From positions 1-24,124 of the IMG/VR virus record IMGVR_UViG_3300022540_000077: a DNA stretch of 24,124 nt, one strand, 5' to 3'. The notes under the pieces are model-generated. The model ran no database searches. It was not told where the DNA came from and worked only from the letters and a program-made list of their open reading frames with translations. Position numbers and translations under genes: made by a program. Within the stretch, counting starts at the first letter, position 1, and each line of letters begins with the position of its first letter. The DNA is from a virus. This document shows positions 3,180 to 23,967 of the stretch, piece by piece.

Positions 3180-4922
3180 CTAAATTATTTTATGCCCTTC
3201 TGATCCATCAGCAAATAAGCCGGTAGATAATGAAATAAACCCATAAGCATCTTTTTGCGCTTCTGTTGCGCTCGAATAATCCGGAGTCGAATCTGGCGCA
3301 ATAAAAAAGTATCGCCCTACAAATGAAGATGTTAATGCTTTCACTGTGAAATTCTCTCCTGCGTCTTTACCTTCATTTATCTCTAAAACTTGAAACTTTC
3401 TCTTTTCGTTTGCGCCGCTAAAATCTTGAAATTGCCATGAGTCCAATTCTACGCGACCCGCCATTGTTAGTTTACCATGATCTTTCTGGTCTAGCTTAAA
3501 AGTTACAGTTTCCGGCGTGTCTGAGAATCGCGCCAATTGTCTGCCCGATAATTGCGCCGCATTTCCTTGAGCAATAAACCATCGGCTTAGAATCGTTTTG
3601 ACTGAATTACCATTATATCTATCAGATCCAGCTCGACTTGCATCTGCTGATATTTGCCATGTTGCAAATTGTTCTATGTCATTTTTCTCGCTGTAATCAA
3701 TTTTATTATAACCAACTCTAATTTCTGTGAATCGATCTTTTGATTTGCGCTCTATTTTAAGACTATCTTGAATAATGTCATAGCCTTCTGTTAGCGTGTT
3801 TATTGTTACCCCTGATGGTTCTGGACTTAATGCTTTAATATCCACTTGTTGATCAACTGCATTCCACCATATATCAAACATAAATACTTCTGACCATTCG
3901 CCAATCACTTTTTCTATGCTTTCAGGCTTCATTAATATTCCATAAACAGTTGCACTGCTTAACCATAGATCACGCTCAGCTTCCCAGTCTGTTGTTGGTA
4001 TATAAGAAGACGGTAATCCTGCACCGGTTGTTAAAATTCTATCCAATGCGACAACGATATTTTCATTAAATACCTCGCATATTTGAACGGTATCGCCTGC
4101 CTTGTGATCCTTATCCTCCGTTCCCCATTGTTTGCGAACAAGAGTTAATGTATCTCCTGATCGTGTAAAAGTCATTGCCTCTTTACCGATGGATAATGTA
4201 CCGCTTGCGGGATAATCGCTATCCCCTATTCCAGAAGGTGTAAGTGTGGCAGATGTTACCCCCGCCGCGAGATCGGACAATAATGAGCCTTCACTTAAAA
4301 CAGGATATTGCGCTTTTCTATCATAAGTCCTAACAAGTACATCTTTTGCCGTGATTGTAACGCTTTTGTCTTTCACGCCATCAATATCAATAATGTCGTA
4401 TTCTTGATATTCAAAATCAGAGGTCGAGAATCCATCGGGGCTTATATAGCCATAACCGATTTTTATTGTGCGGCCTTCATAATAAGGATTGCGGGTTAAG
4501 AATTTACCCCAAAAAGTGCCTTGTTCAACTGCGTTATATGTTCTCTCGTCAACATAAGGATCAATATTGCGATCAGAATGCGGAAAATCAGCTAATTTAA
4601 TTCTGGCAACTGCTCTTTTGCCTAATCCTGATCCTGCTGTTGTTGAAGTTGCTGCTTTTTGTATATTGCCCATAATTACGGGAAACATATTCACGCCTTT
4701 CGGCAAAGACGATCGAGACTGGCAAAATACGTATTCTTTTGTTGTTTTGTCATAATTCGTAGTATCGTTGCAAGTTGCACGAGTGTTATAACATTTTGCA
4801 TCACCTGTTTCGGTTGCAGTACAAGCACCCACACCCGCCGTCAAAGCACAATAATCCATGATTAAAGTGCTTGTTATTAAAGGTTCTCCGCCTAATCGTG
4901 CTTTTTCAATATCATAACTCAT
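3180..4922 (-). CDS. Large tail-tip (hub-type) protein
   Basis: This 580-residue protein follows the distal-tail-like gene with an ATGA overlap and sits where siphoviruses encode tail hub or tip proteins. The N-terminal 70 residues hold a cysteine cluster (DYCALTAGVGAC, KCYNTRATC, EYVFC) that I associate with a family of tail proteins in marine and proteobacterial phages. Further on, beta-rich segments typical of hub domains appear (YQEYDIIDIDGVKDKSVTI near 170-190), then a Gly-rich Ig-like insertion with LSIGKEAMTFTR near 245-256, and a C-terminal region ending ATEAQKDAYGFISLSTG. No peptidoglycan hydrolase motif is seen. The family is not named with certainty; the structural role is well supported by context. 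Confidence 0.7.
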   Translation of the reverse strand: MSYDIEKARLGGEPLITSTLIMDYCALTAGVGACTATETGDAKCYNTRATCNDTTNYDKTTKEYVFCQSRSSLPKGVNMFPVIMGNIQKAATSTTAGSGLGKRAVARIKLADFPHSDRNIDPYVDERTYNAVEQGTFWGKFLTRNPYYEGRTIKIGYGYISPDGFSTSDFEYQEYDIIDIDGVKDKSVTITAKDVLVRTYDRKAQYPVLSEGSLLSDLAAGVTSATLTPSGIGDSDYPASGTLSIGKEAMTFTRSGDTLTLVRKQWGTEDKDHKAGDTVQICEVFNENIVVALDRILTTGAGLPSSYIPTTDWEAERDLWLSSATVYGILMKPESIEKVIGEWSEVFMFDIWWNAVDQQVDIKALSPEPSGVTINTLTEGYDIIQDSLKIERKSKDRFTEIRVGYNKIDYSEKNDIEQFATWQISADASRAGSDRYNGNSVKTILSRWFIAQGNAAQLSGRQLARFSDTPETVTFKLDQKDHGKLTMAGRVELDSWQFQDFSGANEKRKFQVLEINEGKDAGENFTVKALTSSFVGRYFFIAPDSTPDYSSATEAQKDAYGFISLSTGLFADGSEGHKII

Positions 4923-7735: not shown

Positions 7736-8125
7736 TTAACCTCTTAATAATGCAAACATATTCTTAATCTTGCTTGCAATTGCATCTCTGTTCTTTGGCC
7801 TCTCGATATTAGGAGAGGGACAGCCTTTTTCCGTTGCTTCGTAATACTGCGATACATAAGTCACAGATAATTCTTTTATGGCTTCGGCTTCGCCTGGGCT
7901 TATCTCAGCCCCTGTGATTTCAATCCATGCCTTAATATCTATCCAGTCGATCGACGTTAATCGTTCACCGGATATTTTCCCTTCCCCTATCTCGGATAAA
8001 GCGGATACTAAATATTCCGCTTCTCCGATTTCAGGTAACTGGTATTCAGGCTCGATTCCATTCGATTCTGCCAGCAATTTTATTTGTGATTGCCTTGGCT
8101 CCTTATCTCCTTTTGGGATTGCCAT
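7736..8125 (-). CDS. Tail assembly chaperone, second frame (T-like part of G-T fusion)
   Basis: This 129-codon ORF lies just before the tape measure and is probably expressed mainly as the C-terminal part of a frameshift fusion. Its reading frame is open upstream into the preceding chaperone gene, where a run of seven T residues sits. A -1 shift there gives the linker YESLEQAKKYLKQLAWL, which runs directly into its MAIPKGDKEPRQ start. The acidic, helical sequence with no catalytic motif fits the lambda gpT part that binds tape measure and tail tube protein during assembly. An ATG is present at 8125 with no clear strong ribosome binding site, so independent translation is less likely. Confidence 0.8.
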   Translation of the reverse strand: MAIPKGDKEPRQSQIKLLAESNGIEPEYQLPEIGEAEYLVSALSEIGEGKISGERLTSIDWIDIKAWIEITGAEISPGEAEAIKELSVTYVSQYYEATEKGCPSPNIERPKNRDAIASKIKNMFALLRG

Positions 8126-8163
8126 GAGCCATGCAAGCTGTTTTAAATACTTTTTAGCTTGCT

Positions 8164-8583
8164 CTAGGCTTTCGTAAAAAAATTAGCTCTATCCGCAATA
8201 AACGCGTCGGCTTGCTCACGTATCCAAATATGATCCATATACATTTGAAAGGCCGCTTCGGTAGAAAACTCTATCTTCTCCCCTTTATCTTCTAGCCCAC
8301 CCCACCCCGTCGTACAAGCGGCTAACATTTCACAGGCTTCTTCATCGCTAACAGAATAGTCCACGTTTTTAGCGCGATTCCGTACCATTTTCTGAGTGCG
8401 CTTCTTTTGAAATTCGCGGTTTTTATTCCGCCATACTTTAGAATCCGTACCTAATAATTTAATAGTGACGGGCTTTTCTTTCTTACCACTACCATAAAAC
8501 AAAGGATCATCAAATGGATCTAATAAGTGAAGATCTGCGCCAATTTCTGCTTGTTGTGTCAGGTTGAATTTAGATAAATCCAT
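8164..8583 (-). CDS. Tail assembly chaperone, first frame (lambda gpG-like)
   Basis: This 139-residue soluble protein lies between the tail tube gene (2 bases upstream) and the tape measure. It includes a PFDDPLFYGSGKKEKPVTIKL segment (about 23-43), then a basic helical region (KNREFQKKRTQKMVRNRAK, about 54-72), and an acidic C-terminal helix region WIREQADAFIADRANFF. The shape fits the first tail chaperone that coats the tape measure. Near its end the codons AAT TTT TTT ACG offer a T_TTT_TTT slippery heptamer for a -1 shift into the next frame; without the shift it ends TKA and TAG. By place and by the slippery heptamer it is a G/G-T chaperone pair. Confidence 0.8.
   Translation of the reverse strand: MDLSKFNLTQQAEIGADLHLLDPFDDPLFYGSGKKEKPVTIKLLGTDSKVWRNKNREFQKKRTQKMVRNRAKNVDYSVSDEEACEMLAACTTGWGGLEDKGEKIEFSTEAAFQMYMDHIWIREQADAFIADRANFFTKA
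8176..8182 (-). promoter_or_regulatory. Programmed -1 frameshift slippery site (T_TTT_TTT)
   Basis: The zero-frame codons are AAT TTT TTT ACG, so seven consecutive T residues form a T_TTT_TTT heptamer. A -1 slip continues TAC GAA AGC and enters, with no stop, the frame of the downstream chaperone ORF. Frame arithmetic agrees: codon start positions shift from 0 to 1 modulo 3 going from the 8583 frame to the 8125 frame on the minus strand. The predicted fusion is about 282 residues. No obvious downstream stimulatory pseudoknot was identified. Confidence 0.75.
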
Positions 8584-8585
8584 GA

Positions 8586-9038
8586 TTAAGCCTCAAATAA
8601 TGTTTCAGGTTCAATTGCCAATTCTACAGTCGTCATTTCAACTGCGCCCGATGCAATCGCACCAATACCGGCTTTAATGACTTTAGCCGTGAAATTACCA
8701 GTATCTCCAGAAGGCAAAACTATTTCAAAAGAGTAACTTGCGCTTGCAGCTAAAGCGGTTTGTAAAAGCACTTGCCCTGCATCCGTAGATACGCGGCCTA
8801 GAGTCAAAGTGATATTTGCAATATCGTAAGTATCTTTAAGTTTTTGCGGGTAAGCGCGCGTAACTGTTTGATGATTAATTACAGCAAAGGCTTTGGCCAA
8901 TTCACCTACGTCAATTACCTCTCCCAGGTCGGTAAAAGTTAATGATGGATAACCTGTTATAGCATCACTGTCATAAGTTGTAGGCAAAGTCGCAGACATA
9001 CCCACTGTGGTTCCTGTTGTTGTTGATACATCTGTCAT
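8586..9038 (-). CDS. Major tail (tube) protein
   Basis: This 150-residue, Thr/Ala/Val-rich, beta-structured protein lies just upstream of the tail chaperone pair, the standard place for the tail tube subunit. Typical features are the flexible N-terminus (MTDVSTTTGTTVGMS), the segment YPSLTFTDLGEVIDVGELA (about 30-48) and the central DIANITLTLGRVSTDAGQVLL (about 71-91), followed by a strand-rich end with GNFTAKVIKAG. The length is typical of siphovirus tube proteins of the 140-200 residue class. Ordering of tube, chaperones and tape measure is the main support. Confidence 0.85.
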   Translation of the reverse strand: MTDVSTTTGTTVGMSATLPTTYDSDAITGYPSLTFTDLGEVIDVGELAKAFAVINHQTVTRAYPQKLKDTYDIANITLTLGRVSTDAGQVLLQTALAASASYSFEIVLPSGDTGNFTAKVIKAGIGAIASGAVEMTTVELAIEPETLFEA

Positions 9039-15720: not shown

Positions 15721-15825
15721 TTACTTTAATAATGCAGCAATTATCCATATTAAATTAGTTAATATTGTTCCAACCCAAATGCCGCGAGATAAATATTTTC
15801 TTTTTATCAATTCATAATTATTCAT
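15721..15825 (-). CDS. Possible 34-residue membrane peptide
   Basis: This is a short ORF in the gap between the F-like head protein and the scaffold. The ATG (15825-15823) follows the upstream stop by two bases, with GGA about 9 bases before it. The N-terminus is basic (MNNYELIKRKYLSRG), and a single hydrophobic segment (IWVGTILTNLIWIIAALLK, about 16-34) extends to the end. A one-pass membrane peptide is plausible, and such tiny ORFs sit in many phage head clusters, but function is unknown. With such a short length it may be chance. The remainder of the gap holds only the scaffold ribosome site. Confidence 0.45.
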   Translation of the reverse strand: MNNYELIKRKYLSRGIWVGTILTNLIWIIAALLK

Positions 15826-15827
15826 AA

Positions 15828-16919
15828 CTATAATCCAATACGAGAAAATGCAACCGGCTCTAGCTTTTTCATTTCTTTTAATGTCAATGGCTCAAAGTTT
15901 TTTCCTAGCTGCAATTCTGCGAAACGGTTAGAGCTTATCCCTCCATTTCGCAAAAGTTTGCCTCGTGTAGGGCCAATTATACTATTTTGCACTGATGCCG
16001 GTTGTCGTTTAAGCCAGTCGTAATATGAAGTCTCCGCGCTCGTCCGGCCTATTTTACCTGTTCCCGGATCTCTTTGCGCCCTTGTGCGGCCTTTGCTTAT
16101 TTCTTTGTATTTATCAGCTAAAACGGCTGTGGTAGAGCTTCGACAATTCACATGTGCCGGAGGTCTTGGCCCTGAATCAATAGGGTAGATTTGGCCATCC
16201 AAAGACGCACAAATTCGAGATGTGCGGGAATCCAAGGTAGACGACCACTTAACCCCTTTAATTACTTTAGAATTACGTTTCCATACCTCGTTACGCGCTT
16301 GGCTAGCCGCATGCTGTAGGGATGTTCTTACAATTGCCTCGGTATTTCGTTTTGAGATAGCCAATAAGCCGTCATTGAACCCCGCCGCTTTTGTGCCTCT
16401 GATTCTCTGGATTATTTGTTGAGTAGTTTGGCCTTCAACATATCCAAACCTGACAGCGCCTTGAATCCGCTTAATCTCATTAGCTCTCATATCAGCAAAG
16501 AAAGTCTCGAGTAGTGAGCCGCTCGAAGCCCCGCCAATATCACCTAGAGGGGCATTGAATACGGCTGCGGTTATTTGTGAGTCACTTGGTAGCCTGAAAT
16601 TAACGCCATCCACGACTTGAGATAGTGAACGTTGTTCAAAACCAGCCTCATAGATGGACGCATCCTTAATACTTTCAATCCAGACCTTTTTATAATCGTT
16701 ATAGGTTCCGTTTAGCAGTTTACCAATTTGTTTTATCTGTGATTCTATTTTGGCGCGGGAAAGGCTTTGAATGTCTAGGCCGGATAATCTTAAGCGTAAG
16801 TCTTTATCCATTTGGCGTAGGAAATTGTCGAAAAGATTTACTTGAGATGTTTTCAATCTTTCAAAGTGGCTTTGATGCCGAGTTGCAATCTCCACCAACG
16901 CAATATCAACCATCCTCAT
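15828..16919 (-). CDS. Head morphogenesis (Mu F-like / SPP1 gp7-like) minor head protein
   Basis: This protein of about 363 residues belongs to the phage head morphogenesis group (minor capsid protein, Mu gpF/SPP1 gp7). The family motif is clear near the C-terminal half: TEAIVRTSLQHAASQARN, then KWSSTLDSRTSRICASLDGQ, and GPRPPAHVNCRSS (zinc-finger-like Cys/His set). Such proteins are packed in the head with the portal. An in-frame ATG lies further upstream at 16943, but the ATG at 16919 has a GGA motif about 10 bases before it and less overlap with the previous gene, and yet another ATG at 16913 has almost no ribosome-site spacing. The start is therefore uncertain by up to 10 residues. It follows the portal and precedes the scaffold, as in related phages. 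Confidence 0.88.
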   Translation of the reverse strand: MRMVDIALVEIATRHQSHFERLKTSQVNLFDNFLRQMDKDLRLRLSGLDIQSLSRAKIESQIKQIGKLLNGTYNDYKKVWIESIKDASIYEAGFEQRSLSQVVDGVNFRLPSDSQITAAVFNAPLGDIGGASSGSLLETFFADMRANEIKRIQGAVRFGYVEGQTTQQIIQRIRGTKAAGFNDGLLAISKRNTEAIVRTSLQHAASQARNEVWKRNSKVIKGVKWSSTLDSRTSRICASLDGQIYPIDSGPRPPAHVNCRSSTTAVLADKYKEISKGRTRAQRDPGTGKIGRTSAETSYYDWLKRQPASVQNSIIGPTRGKLLRNGGISSNRFAELQLGKNFEPLTLKEMKKLEPVAFSRIGL

Positions 16920-21412: not shown

Positions 21413-21822
21413 TTCATAGCCTCGCTGTAATCTTCTGGGTGGGTTAATATTAGATTTAAATGCTCTGAACAATAAAATTCTAACAACTCCAAATAACCTA
21501 CCATTTCTTTATTTGTAAACTTGCTAGTATGCGCTCTAATCGTCCTTTCTTTTCCATTTATTTCAATTGTTTGCCTTGGCAATAAAAGATTAACCATGAA
21601 TTCATGTATGTCATCTGTTGAATATATCTGGCCTTGCGTTTCCCTAATATGTTTCTGAATTTCACCGTTCCAGACCCACATCAGAGAATTAATAGCCGTA
21701 CTTCGTTTTGGCTTATAAAGGCTTGTCTCTATAAGTATCGGCTTATCTATAGTTGCAATTGCCATTTTTTCGACAAAAGCGAGCTTTTCAGTCTCATTAT
21801 TAATGATAGTTCTATTTTTCAC
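21388..21822 (-). CDS. NinB/Orf-like recombination protein
   Basis: This 144-residue protein is like lambda Orf (NinB), which binds single-stranded DNA and SSB and helps load recombinases. The visible pattern is RSTAINSLMWVWNGEIQ (40-56), TDDIHEFMVNLLLPRQ (69-84), the HTSKFTNKEMVGYLELLEF core (98-116) and the end LTHPEDYSEAMK. It starts at a GTG (21822-21820), which follows a GAGG site with 4 bases spacing and lies inside the end of RusA (11-base overlap). Next to RusA it fits a recombination module. Confidence 0.75.
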   Translation of the reverse strand: MKNRTIINNETEKLAFVEKMAIATIDKPILIETSLYKPKRSTAINSLMWVWNGEIQKHIRETQGQIYSTDDIHEFMVNLLLPRQTIEINGKERTIRAHTSKFTNKEMVGYLELLEFYCSEHLNLILTHPEDYSEAMKCAITKPN

Positions 21823-22219
21823 AATGCCTCAACCTTTTAGAATCGCTTATCTCCTTTGCTAATGCTTTTGCTATTCCTTCGTTAGAATCGTTACCTGCTA
21901 TCATTTCAAATATATCAAAGCTAATGTATTCCTGGCCTTTTGGCACTATCCTCTTTAAAACTATTGCCGCATATATTCTGTTGTCATTAAATCCGTAGTA
22001 ACTACTTATGATGTCCTGAAAAGGTTTTAACGGATTATCCCAGTCGCTACCTCTGCTGCTAAAGCCGAATTGGACAGCTAATTCTAATTCTCCATCAGGT
22101 ATAGTCATCGGTTTAAGTTTTAGCTTTAACTCTTTAGTGTAAGCCTTGTAGTCATCTGTTCTGAATCTTCGACCTTTCCAGGCATCATTTACCGATAAAG
22201 GCTTAATATTTATTTTCAT
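21812..22219 (-). CDS. RusA-like Holliday junction resolvase
   Basis: This 135-residue endonuclease is of the RusA family, which cuts Holliday junctions and other branched DNA. The key motif is GSDWDNPLKPFQDIIS (57-72), with Asp59 and Asp61 at the spacing of the E. coli RusA catalytic pair, Lys65 four residues later, and Asp79 in FNDNRIY (77-83) at the spacing of the third acidic residue. The N-terminus MKINIKPLSVNDAWKGRRF is also typical. In phages it resolves replication and packaging intermediates. The site GAGGG lies about 3 bases before ATG. It is the first phage gene downstream of the attC-like array. Confidence 0.88.
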   Translation of the reverse strand: MKINIKPLSVNDAWKGRRFRTDDYKAYTKELKLKLKPMTIPDGELELAVQFGFSSRGSDWDNPLKPFQDIISSYYGFNDNRIYAAIVLKRIVPKGQEYISFDIFEMIAGNDSNEGIAKALAKEISDSKRLRHCEK

Positions 22220-22254: not shown

Positions 22255-22324
22255 TTCCACCTAATTGTTATACGGACGTGGGCGTAATGTATTGCGCCCT
22301 TGGTCGTATACTCTTATGTTATGC
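22255..22324 (+). other. Degenerate attC-like site 1
   Basis: The R' box is GTTATGC (22318-22324) with a 6-base spacer. The L' box is GTATAC (22306-22311). L'' is GTTATAC (22267-22273), that is GTATAC with one extra T. A 5-base spacer precedes a poor R'' box TTCCACC (22255-22261). Central arms GGGCGTAAT and ATTGCGCCC (22280-22288 and 22291-22299) pair across a 2-base loop. Box order and spacers fit the other sites, but R'' does not pair with R'. Confidence 0.45.
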
Positions 22325-22325
22325 A

Positions 22326-22544
22326 TCACCAATGGTATCCAGCAGGATGTCCACACTTTCTGCAAAATTCACTATTAGTGCCATCAATCGTTTCTCTGGA
22401 TCCTTTACCTTCATACTTAAAACAAATTCCCATTTTATACTTAAGCCATCCATTGTTAATAAAGCGCCAATGTCTAGGCCAATACCTGCCAACCCAAAAA
22501 CCGATCAATAAAGAAAGTAAAATGTATAACAAATCATTCAACAT
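22326..22544 (-). CDS. Cassette ORF: small membrane-anchored cysteine protein
   Basis: This is a 72-residue protein. Its start codon (22544-22542) lies inside attC-like site 2, whose arm also supplies a GAGGA ribosome site 7 bases upstream. A longer frame to 22571 would run through the hairpin and is less likely. The N-terminus is one membrane segment (LLYILLSLLIGFWVGRYW, about 5-22), followed by a basic part (PRHWRFINNGWLKYKMG). The C-terminus holds CRKCGHPAGYH, a CxxC and His pair that may bind metal. No family is recognised. Its TGA lies just before the R' box of site 1. Confidence 0.6.
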   Translation of the reverse strand: MLNDLLYILLSLLIGFWVGRYWPRHWRFINNGWLKYKMGICFKYEGKGSRETIDGTNSEFCRKCGHPAGYHW

Positions 22545-22604
22545 CGCTCGTTCCTCGCTTGGACAGCGCAAAAGACGCGATGCCAGTTAATTAAATCGTT
22601 ATGC
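22524..22604 (+). other. attC-like site 2
   Basis: The R'' box is GTATAAC (22524-22530), spacer 5, L'' ATTCAAC (22536-22542). L' is GTTAAT (22586-22591), spacer 6, and R' is GTTATGC (22598-22604). L'' pairs with L' if the fourth base (C) is left out, the extrahelical base expected in attC. Between them CAGCGC and GCGATG (one mismatch) and TGG/CCA form the inner stem with another unpaired A. This layout closely resembles classical attC sites such as that of aadA cassettes. Confidence 0.8.
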
Positions 22605-22606
22605 GG

Positions 22607-22873
22607 TCATTCACCATAAGCATCATGCTTGATGCAAATATTATTCAAGTCTATTCTTGCTCTAAACACGGAAAACTCGCCTTCCCATTTTCCAGTTGTC
22701 TTTGTGTACATCGTGCCCTTTAATATTTTGTTGTTTTCGTGCTTAGCTCTGGCGATAACAGTCAACTCCAATTCATCAAATTCATCATCCGAATAATTAC
22801 TAAGCCAATCCGAAGCATCACAATGATAATCTTTGCGTGCTATTTGCTGAGTTTCTTCGCTAAAGTCCCACAT
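22607..22873 (-). CDS. Cassette ORF: 88-residue orphan protein
   Basis: This is an 88-residue acidic protein. Its ATG (22873-22871) falls in the R'' box of site 3, in the minus-strand reading GTTATG, with no good ribosome site (GAGG is 14 bases away). The N-terminus has ARKDYHCDASDWLSNYSDDE (about 12-31) and the C-terminus EGEFSVFRARIDLNNICIKH (about 64-83), ending DAYGE. I associate this pattern (ARKdy.CdA..w ... f.aR.d...ic.k...y.E) with small proteins found in gene cassettes and scattered proteobacterial islands, function unknown. The stop lies at 22607-22609, just after the R' box of site 2. Confidence 0.65.
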   Translation of the reverse strand: MWDFSEETQQIARKDYHCDASDWLSNYSDDEFDELELTVIARAKHENNKILKGTMYTKTTGKWEGEFSVFRARIDLNNICIKHDAYGE

Positions 22874-22952
22874 AACAAAACATTAAACCTCATTCACTTC
22901 GTTCATTTGGACAGCGCAAAAGACGCGCTGCCAGTTAATTCAATCGTTATAA
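22870..22952 (+). other. attC-like site 3
   Basis: The R'' box is ACATAAC (22870-22876), spacer 5, L'' ATTAAAC (22882-22888). L' is GTTAAT (22934-22939), spacer 6, and R' is GTTATAA (22946-22952). Leaving out the fourth base (A) of L'' makes it pair with L'. The inner stem is TGG then an unpaired A, CAGCGC paired with GCGCTG and CCA, with AAAAGAC in the loop. About 45 bases of its right half are nearly identical to site 2. Confidence 0.8.
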
Positions 22953-23180
22953 CTCTTGCGGCCTATCCGCTTCGTCTTGTTTCATAGCTTTATATAAAGC
23001 ATGTAATGCGGTTGTCGTAGCAGGGCTTTGCGTTCCAGAAGCACAGAACTCAACACTCTTTGTTGTTATTCTGTGGTCTTGTGGTAATACAGTAACAATC
23101 ACATCGCCATCTTCTTCAATGAATAGCTGCATTTTCATTCCGCTACCCATATCACATTTTCTAGCTATTTCTCTGGTCAT
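22947..23180 (-). CDS. Cassette ORF: 77-residue orphan protein
   Basis: This 77-residue protein starts at the ATG at 23180-23178, 19 bases inside the cassette edge, with AGGA about 9 bases before it. The TAA stop (22949-22947) is in the R' box of site 3. The sequence has MTREIARKCDMGSGMKMQL, then EDGDVIVTV (24-32), and SVEFCASGTQSPATTTALHA (about 43-62), followed by LYKAMKQDEADRPQEL. The 'veFc.sGtqSp.T..AL..l..am' segment looks conserved, in the style of small phage and cassette proteins, but function is unknown. No membrane segment is visible. Confidence 0.65.
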   Translation of the reverse strand: MTREIARKCDMGSGMKMQLFIEEDGDVIVTVLPQDHRITTKSVEFCASGTQSPATTTALHALYKAMKQDEADRPQEL

Positions 23181-23198
23181 GCTTATGCTTCCTAAAAG

Positions 23199-23277
23199 TT
23201 ATAACAAATAAATTAAGACCGTTCGTTTCACTCACTTGGACGCTCGTACCTCGCGCCACTTATTAAAGCCGTTATGT
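23199..23277 (+). other. attC-like site 4
   Basis: The R'' box is TTATAAC (23199-23205), spacer 5, L'' AATTAAG (23211-23217). L' is CTTATT (23259-23264), spacer 6, and R' is GTTATGT (23271-23277). L'' pairs with L' when the fourth base (T) is left out. The central part is less regular (ACTTGGACGCTCGTACCTCG). Box spacers are identical to sites 2 and 3 although box sequences differ, so this is not a simple copy. Confidence 0.78.
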
Positions 23278-23532
23278 GTTCGCCAGCTTTAATATTTCAT
23301 CCCAGTCATGATGATCTTGCGGGCAATGTTTTGTTGCTAACACTAATAACCTGTCATTTTTAGCGAGCATTTCAACCATTAAAGAATCAAACTGCTCTGC
23401 GTTCTCAGAGAACTTTTCCCTTAAACCACATAACAACTCATTTGAAAAGGACGCACTAACACCGTGCTCTCCGTGAACTGGGCATTTTAAATTAGGCCCC
23501 ATGCCTAAATGATAATTACATTTACACTCCAT
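23272..23532 (-). CDS. Cassette-associated ORF: small Cys/His protein
   Basis: This 86-residue protein begins with a putative metal-binding segment, MECKCNYHLGMGPNLKCPVHG, in which Cys3, Cys5, His8, Cys17 and His20 could bind zinc. A helical part follows (FSENAEQFDSLMVEMLAKND, about 41-60) and the end is HCPQDHHDWDEILKLANT. A GAGAGGT site lies before the ATG. The stop TAA is in the R' box of site 4. Upstream, near 23556-23562, is a lone GTTATAT resembling an R' box, but with no paired L''/R'' to the left, so this gene's right border is unclear. No family is recognised. Confidence 0.6.
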   Translation of the reverse strand: MECKCNYHLGMGPNLKCPVHGEHGVSASFSNELLCGLREKFSENAEQFDSLMVEMLAKNDRLLVLATKHCPQDHHDWDEILKLANT

Positions 23533-23556
23533 CGCGCACCTCTCAATTCAATTTCG

Positions 23557-23967
23557 TTATATCCTTCTTCTCATCTGACCTTCTAATGAAGCAACGGTTG
23601 CCTGACTAACATCAAATATGGCCGCGATTCGTGACCCTGATAATTCTTTTAGCCGTTCTTTTTGATTATAAATAGCCTCATCACCAATGCAGAGTTTTTC
23701 GTTTAACTCTTTTTCTAACTCAGGATATTTGCCGCTATCTTGCAATTCTTCGATGTTAAGCACTTCTTCTCTGTTGTGTTTTAGATTTCGTATAAGCTCA
23801 CATTTTTCTTTAAGCAAGATATTTACATCGGTTGTTTGTTTTGTGGTTAGCATATTCTCCCCTTTTTCGTAAAATTCGCATATTCTGTCGTTTCCCCTGC
23901 TTATTTTGATAGCATTAAGAACTTGCTGCTGCTTGGTATAGCTTAAACCGCATACGCCGCTTTTCAT
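23557..23967 (-). CDS. Helix-turn-helix protein with coiled-coil middle
   Basis: This is a 136-residue protein by the ATG at 23967, which overlaps the SSB-like stop (TAATG). A second possible start at 23853 has a GGGGAG ribosome site and would give 98 residues. The middle is charged and helical (LKEKCELIRNLKHNREEVLN and ELEKELNEKL). The C-terminus has LKELSGSRIAAIFDVSQATVASLEGQM (in parts: LKELSGSRIAAIF, then DVSQATVASLEGQ), a classical HTH of the 'gs.IA..f.VS.aTV..l' kind. It may be a regulator of phage genes. The function is inferred from the HTH only. Confidence 0.65.
   Translation of the reverse strand: MKSGVCGLSYTKQQQVLNAIKISRGNDRICEFYEKGENMLTTKQTTDVNILLKEKCELIRNLKHNREEVLNIEELQDSGKYPELEKELNEKLCIGDEAIYNQKERLKELSGSRIAAIFDVSQATVASLEGQMRRRI

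Follow-up and report, generated by a model that had tools for sequence, protein, structure and literature searches.

Three hairpins punctuate a run of small genes near one end of a phage contig, and they raise the question of whether these genes are integron cassettes and, if so, why every one of them faces against the polarity of its recombination site. The window analysed here is the entire IMG/VR virus record IMGVR_UViG_3300022540_000077 (24,124 bases), in which terminase, portal and tail genes, including tape-measure genes, are present. The features of the array and its borders are collected in Table 1.

Table 1. Putative attC sites, cassette ORFs and bordering features of the window (bit scores from the bacterial-trained attC model).
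Feature	Position	Strand	Anatomy	Remarks
RusA-like resolvase gene, array border	21812..22219	-		phrog_11573 (1.5e-35); phrog_140 (3.6e-4)
Degenerate boundary site	22255..22324	+	R' GTTATGC intact at 22318-22324; strong hairpin; without R''	
Cassette ORF1	22326..22544	-		72 aa; N-terminus hydrophobic, C-terminus CxxC-type; no PHROG match
attC site 1	22524..22604	+ (canonical polarity)	R'' GTATAAC, 5 nt, L'' ATT(C)AAC ... L' GTTAAT, 6 nt, R' GTTATGC	predicted cut G^TT, 22598/22599; 39.0 bits
Cassette ORF2	22607..22873	-		88 aa; phrog_13613, E 1.1e-21 (phage family of unknown function)
attC site 2	22870..22952	+	R'' ACATAAC, 5 nt, L'' ATT(A)AAC ... L' GTTAAT, 6 nt, R' GTTATAA	28.2 bits; R'' holds the minus-strand ATG of ORF2
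Cassette ORF3	22947..23180	-		77 aa; TAA stop within R' of attC site 2, at the predicted cut
attC site 3	23199..23277	+	R'' TTATAAC, 5 nt, L'' AAT(T)AAG ... L' CTTATT, 6 nt, R' GTTATGT	24.8 bits; R' holds the minus-strand TAA stop of ORF4
Cassette ORF4	23272..23532	-		86 aa; TAA stop within R' of attC site 3, at the predicted cut
Isolated R'-like box	23556..23562	+	GTTATAT	contains the TAA stop of the minus-strand ORF 23557-23967

According to the original prediction, three palindromes share one architecture in which L'' pairs with L' only if its fourth base is skipped. The boxes and the pairing scores bore out both their coordinates and their anatomy, the skipped fourth base giving the better L''/L' pairing at all three sites (6.0 vs 2.6, 4.3 and 2.6). 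The three sites have the arrangement that defines an integron attC, R''-5-L''(extra base)...L'-6-R' with G^TT in R'. They were scored with a home-made model of positions and pairs, whose training set of 33 attC sites was drawn exclusively from bacterial integrons (class 1 plasmid arrays, an intI-linked array of Halobeggiatoa and two arrays of marine Gammaproteobacteria). A first scanner with fixed spacers had missed PH101 and scored the short-spacer sites of TJE1 poorly, and both were recovered when the L'-R' spacer was allowed to vary from 5 to 7 nt. Several Vibrionaceae arrays were kept out of the training set because most of them went undetected by the first scanner, whose orientation call was ambiguous on long Vibrio-type sites. 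With the bacterial-trained model, no hit in 60 dinucleotide-shuffled versions of the 24 kb window exceeded 18.1 bits, and with a looser model none of 100 window shuffles reached 24 bits (maximum 21.1). Reading sites 1, 2 and 3 in the opposite direction lowered their scores by 30.6, 25.8 and 37.5 bits, respectively. The predicted DNA fold energies of the bottom strand are unremarkable (z -0.8, -1.9 and +1.2), and thus it is the boxes, their spacing and the skipped base that support the window sites. Judged on these sequence features, the three hairpins are attC sites of the integron type, and the terminase, portal and tape-measure genes of the contig uphold the claim that such sites occur here in a phage.

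A different reading would be that these are intergenic phage hairpins unrelated to integrons, for example terminators, RNA processing sites or promoter-stem-loop (PeSL) shuffling elements. PeSL elements of T4-like phages are repeated stem-loops between small early genes, proposed as an aid to gene shuffling, and phage attC arrays resemble them in this respect; to our knowledge, however, they are not integrase sites and have no R/L boxes, no extrahelical base rule and no nearby integrase. The window sites do lie between small co-directional phage genes, in a record without integrase and with ordinary fold energies. Nevertheless, they score 24.8 to 39.0 bits in a bacterial-trained model, against no hit of 24 bits or more in 100 window shuffles, similar inverted arrays adjoin genuine intI genes and show cassette gain and loss with junctions precisely at the attC cut (see below), and attC sites of PH101 recombine with IntI1, the bottom strand better than the top (PMC9892861). 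We therefore regard unrelated hairpins as a very improbable source of the pattern. Our model finds four attC sites in PH101, and those assayed in that study are likely among them. Rfam and tRNA scans of the window gave no match.

With three attC sites within 0.8 kb and no integrase, the array qualifies as a CALIN (at least two attC, no integrase). It is not a complete integron as it stands, there being no match to TIGR02249 (intI) across the 24,124 bp record, which is possibly a fragment. When the array region and one attC were used as blastn queries against phage isolates, no match was returned. The degenerate fourth site held up in part: its R' is intact and its hairpin strong (z -3.2, + strand), but it has no AAC-type R'' and its model score is below 10 bits. 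The isolated R'-like box beyond ORF4 has no partner box and receives no score from the attC model; from its sequence, it is probably the remnant of a further cassette boundary. In the stretch 23556-23967, the HTH-like ORF that adjoins the array has its TAA stop within this GTTATAT, which suggests an older cassette boundary whose attC has apparently decayed. Near copies of site 3 were found in other contigs (L007/L126 and L011/L129), and a near copy of site 1 in L011 (contig G002). A close relative of site 1 also lies at 596-676 of JALTJZ010000066.1 (L033), a contig filed under a Chromatiales genome; because its coverage is very high (525x) and its genes are inverted, we treated it as probably belonging to a phage and left it out of the bacterial counts. 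It was probably binned with a bacterium and hints at a host group.

Each gap between sites holds one short ORF, as had been noted, and what had gone unmentioned is that every one of them is read from the minus strand, against attC polarity. All genes of the block are antisense to the + attC polarity, and no cassette gene of the window is oriented as its attC, the usual arrangement in bacteria. ORF2 has relatives in Vibrio and Pseudomonas phages; a relative in L007 (G001), with 85% amino-acid identity, adjoins another inverted attC array, and a homologue of the ORF2 cassette together with part of its attC is present in a largely different phage. Window cassettes have few relatives, and ORF1, ORF3 and ORF4 gave no match among PHROG families. 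One proposed check was whether related phages lack the block at the rusA locus. Indeed, six contigs with a relative of the RusA-like gene were fetched and none has attC there, nor does attC adjoin any of three terminase relatives. An in-frame stretch like VSASGSNELLC is common to ORF4 (23426-23457) and two L007 proteins (8032-8253 and 8513-8899), and it is encoded by attC-like DNA, as though the coding sequence had absorbed an attC.

Is the inversion a peculiarity of this contig? As a bacterial control, we fetched the 5' side of 60 Gammaproteobacteria intI genes. Forty-one of the 60 loci had attC, with 38 arrays in the same sense as their attC, 3 mixed and 0 inverted; single sites were divided 151 same vs 11 inverted, and 168 of 168 attC were canonical relative to intI. 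Virus contigs, with IMG/VR's virus labels, were gathered by an IntI profile and by DNA patterns blind to gene direction, and were merged into one cluster if they shared 1 kb at 90% identity. Among merged clusters with at least two attC, 80 of 103 were inverted, 16 same and 7 mixed, and two further clusters had contigs of both kinds. Most inverted contigs have few or no genes in common outside their arrays, and therefore the inverted arrays do not represent one lineage. In L007 (G001) and L011 (G002), where the arrays are likewise inverted, attC polarity reverses where gene direction reverses. In inverted arrays without intI, 73 of 109 cassettes have a stop codon that ends precisely at the attC cut (TAA^C), as do ORF3 and ORF4 of the window. 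The median cassette gene length is 81 to 94 aa in phages vs 145 aa in bacteria.

Since the genes were called by a simple script and some virus contigs are short fragments, one might suspect that the orientation signal stems from faulty gene calls or from bacterial contigs filed as viral. We consider this extremely unlikely, because the identical script gives 151 to 11 in the other direction for bacterial integrons, phage hallmark genes adjoin intI, and stops placed exactly at the attC cut in 73 of 109 cassettes are not expected from chance calls. The annotated isolates also speak against an artefact: PH101 and MW202573 are inverted, both by their own annotation and by the attC model. TJE1 has the usual bacterial orientation, and inversion is thus not universal. 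Inverted genes are the norm in phage arrays, and no bacterial array examined has this layout.

We also considered whether the phage had simply acquired ordinary bacterial integron cassettes. The window attC sites are similar in sequence to sites in arrays of marine Gammaproteobacteria (L019, L023), and a few virus contigs look like prophages beside host integrons, such as L190/L259 with intI and same-direction cassettes, whose IntI is placed among bacterial ones. Such an origin is nonetheless improbable for the window, where the genes run counter to attC polarity, ORF2 is a member of a phage family, and there is no protein match to the bacterial cassettes: a comparison of 184 inverted phage-cassette proteins with 120 bacterial cassette proteins, admittedly a small sample, yielded no match. 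The original prediction of the phage as a vehicle for cassettes finds support in the homologous cassettes carried by different phages, but not in so far as ordinary bacterial cassettes were meant. Most phage cassette proteins are nameless; those to which a name could be given are chiefly DNA methyltransferases, Lar restriction alleviation proteins, Mom, exonucleases and RNA ligases.

Cassette exchange itself can be seen in other phages. Three whole cassettes (616, 451 and 757 bp) distinguish the near-identical phages L246 and L248. When each is removed from the sequence at the predicted AA^C, the two phages match at 100, 100 and 99.3% over 300 bases, and moving the join position brings no improvement. 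The two are 99.9% identical from approximately 94 bases upstream of intI onward (L246 5793-6918 vs L248 5793-6903) and carry different cassettes before that point, as would be expected for insertion at attI. This makes them a naturally occurring pair from which a phage attI could be defined. Similar patterns were found for L250/L251, L252/L289 and L222/L226, and cassettes common to otherwise different phages (L066/L100, L163/L166 and L172/L201) have both ends close to attC cuts. Exact junctions show integron recombination in these other phages; for the window, its sequence points to the same process.

For the integrase, the original prediction had invoked the host. A host enzyme may act here, but a phage enzyme is an alternative, given that an IntI gene is found in many phages. 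An IntI query matched at least 504 virus loci, and among the best 80 there were 57 with attC nearby, 46 of them inverted, 7 mixed and 4 same, with 194 of 199 attC canonical to intI. All 10 IntI proteins tested passed the curated TIGR02249 cut-off. In the virus contig L098/L210, a 330-residue IntI scores 390 bits (cut-off 265), and its gene lies downstream of four attC sites, co-directional with the cassette genes. TerL phrog_2 alone proved a poor phage hallmark, matching 14 of 50 and 6 of 50 contigs, and hallmark genes near intI were therefore examined singly: in L214 and L220 the gene immediately downstream of intI is TerL, and other virus intI genes have portal, tail or phage integrase genes in their vicinity. 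In a tree of 134 IntI, whose bacterial side is made up of Gammaproteobacteria only, most phage IntI fall into two virus-only groups (30 rows, SH-aLRT 97; 29 rows, SH-aLRT 95); a third virus-only group has 6 rows, and sense-type L224 and L259 and inverted L238 are placed among bacteria. The full phage layout combines a TIGR02249 IntI, canonical attC and genes co-directional with intI, of which the window shows the array half, with no intI in its 24,124 bp.

Taken with the exchanges described above, we think it likely that the window holds an integron cassette array without integrase, of an inverted, phage-specific kind, moved by integron recombination. Recombination at attC by integron integrase is established in general. 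Each unit would consist of an attC followed by one small phage gene on the opposite strand, reading 5'-attC-gene-3' in gene sense. IntI would bind the folded bottom strand of the attC and cut R' at G^TT, and the unit would then be joined to another attC or to attI. The enzyme for the window phage might come from the host, from a second phage sharing the cell or from a part of the genome beyond the 24 kb record. As for the layout, phage operons presumably run one way, intI included, with attI just upstream of intI. The position of attI would then fix attC polarity away from intI and against transcription, and consequently only units with a reversed gene would be read from the phage operon.

The same system could owe its layout to replication: where genes run co-directionally with replication, inversion would place the recombinogenic bottom strand on the lagging-strand template and favour exchange, a layout that bacterial chromosomal integrons avoid. 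In native arrays of V. cholerae the bottom strand is on the leading-strand template, and inverting an array sharply raises excision (PMC11023631), in agreement with this idea. Transcription of genes and intI as one unit would, however, account for the layout without it, and we hold a replication cause to be possible but rather doubtful. The cassette pool may serve phages as a set of exchangeable counter-defence and host-takeover genes. We lean slightly towards the broader view that phages have a separate integron world of their own, with their own IntI lineages and reversed-gene cassettes in which counter-defence genes are traded among phages, a mirror image of bacterial integrons. If so, phage cassettes would be expressed from phage operons but not when placed in a bacterial integron, and a bacterial cassette that entered a phage array would have its gene in antisense.

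Reports of attC in phage genomes, mentioned in the original prediction, do exist. Phage CALINs, that is attC clusters without integrase, were described in PH101, TJE1, P12002L and MW202573 (Qi et al., 2023; PMC9892861), and they share with the arrays found here small genes, methyltransferase cassettes and the lack of integrase. The arrays of PH101 and TJE1 were described there as having the layout most typical of bacteria, whereas we find the genes of PH101 and MW202573 antisense to attC and only TJE1 bacterial-like, so the published descriptions of phage CALINs are qualified by the inverted layout. That study reported three complete integrons and one integrase-only element for phages, compared with the dozens of virus contigs with intI and inverted arrays found here. 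Temperate phages of Vibrio anguillarum and Shewanella likewise have intI in the phage genome; the V. anguillarum phage integrons were, however, described as pieces of the host's own integron (PMC9892861), while the IntI beside inverted arrays are mostly in virus-only tree groups. Chromosomal and class 1 integrons agree with the phage system in IntI family (TIGR02249), attC boxes and spacing, attC-intI polarity, insertion beside intI and exchange at G^TT. They differ in that bacterial genes follow attC polarity, away from intI, and phage genes run against attC, along the direction of intI. In literature searches covering mainly open-access journals, we found no description of inverted phage cassettes, of the spread of phage intI or of natural cassette exchange; phage attC clusters are thus already known, and inverted phage cassettes are apparently undescribed.

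Integrons have been studied as bacterial devices in which genes point away from intI. The reverse, mirror-image layout in dozens of unrelated phages, together with the natural exchange of cassettes evident between near-identical genomes, would amount to site-specific gene shuffling that carries restriction-evading genes, and it would help to explain why phage and bacterial cassette pools are separate. Whether the layout limits integron gene flow between phages and bacteria, resistance genes included, becomes testable.

Two further observations concern orientation in individual phages. A homologous cassette protein with 63% identity is encoded by L064 (1-288) and L149 (TJE1; 1138-1467), but only one of the two phages has it inverted relative to attC, the second having it in sense; either this gene became a cassette twice or it was flipped. 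In L129, near-identical attC at 3742-3826 and 15773-15857 are on opposite strands, each antisense to the local genes, possibly reflecting duplication of a cassette inside the genome.
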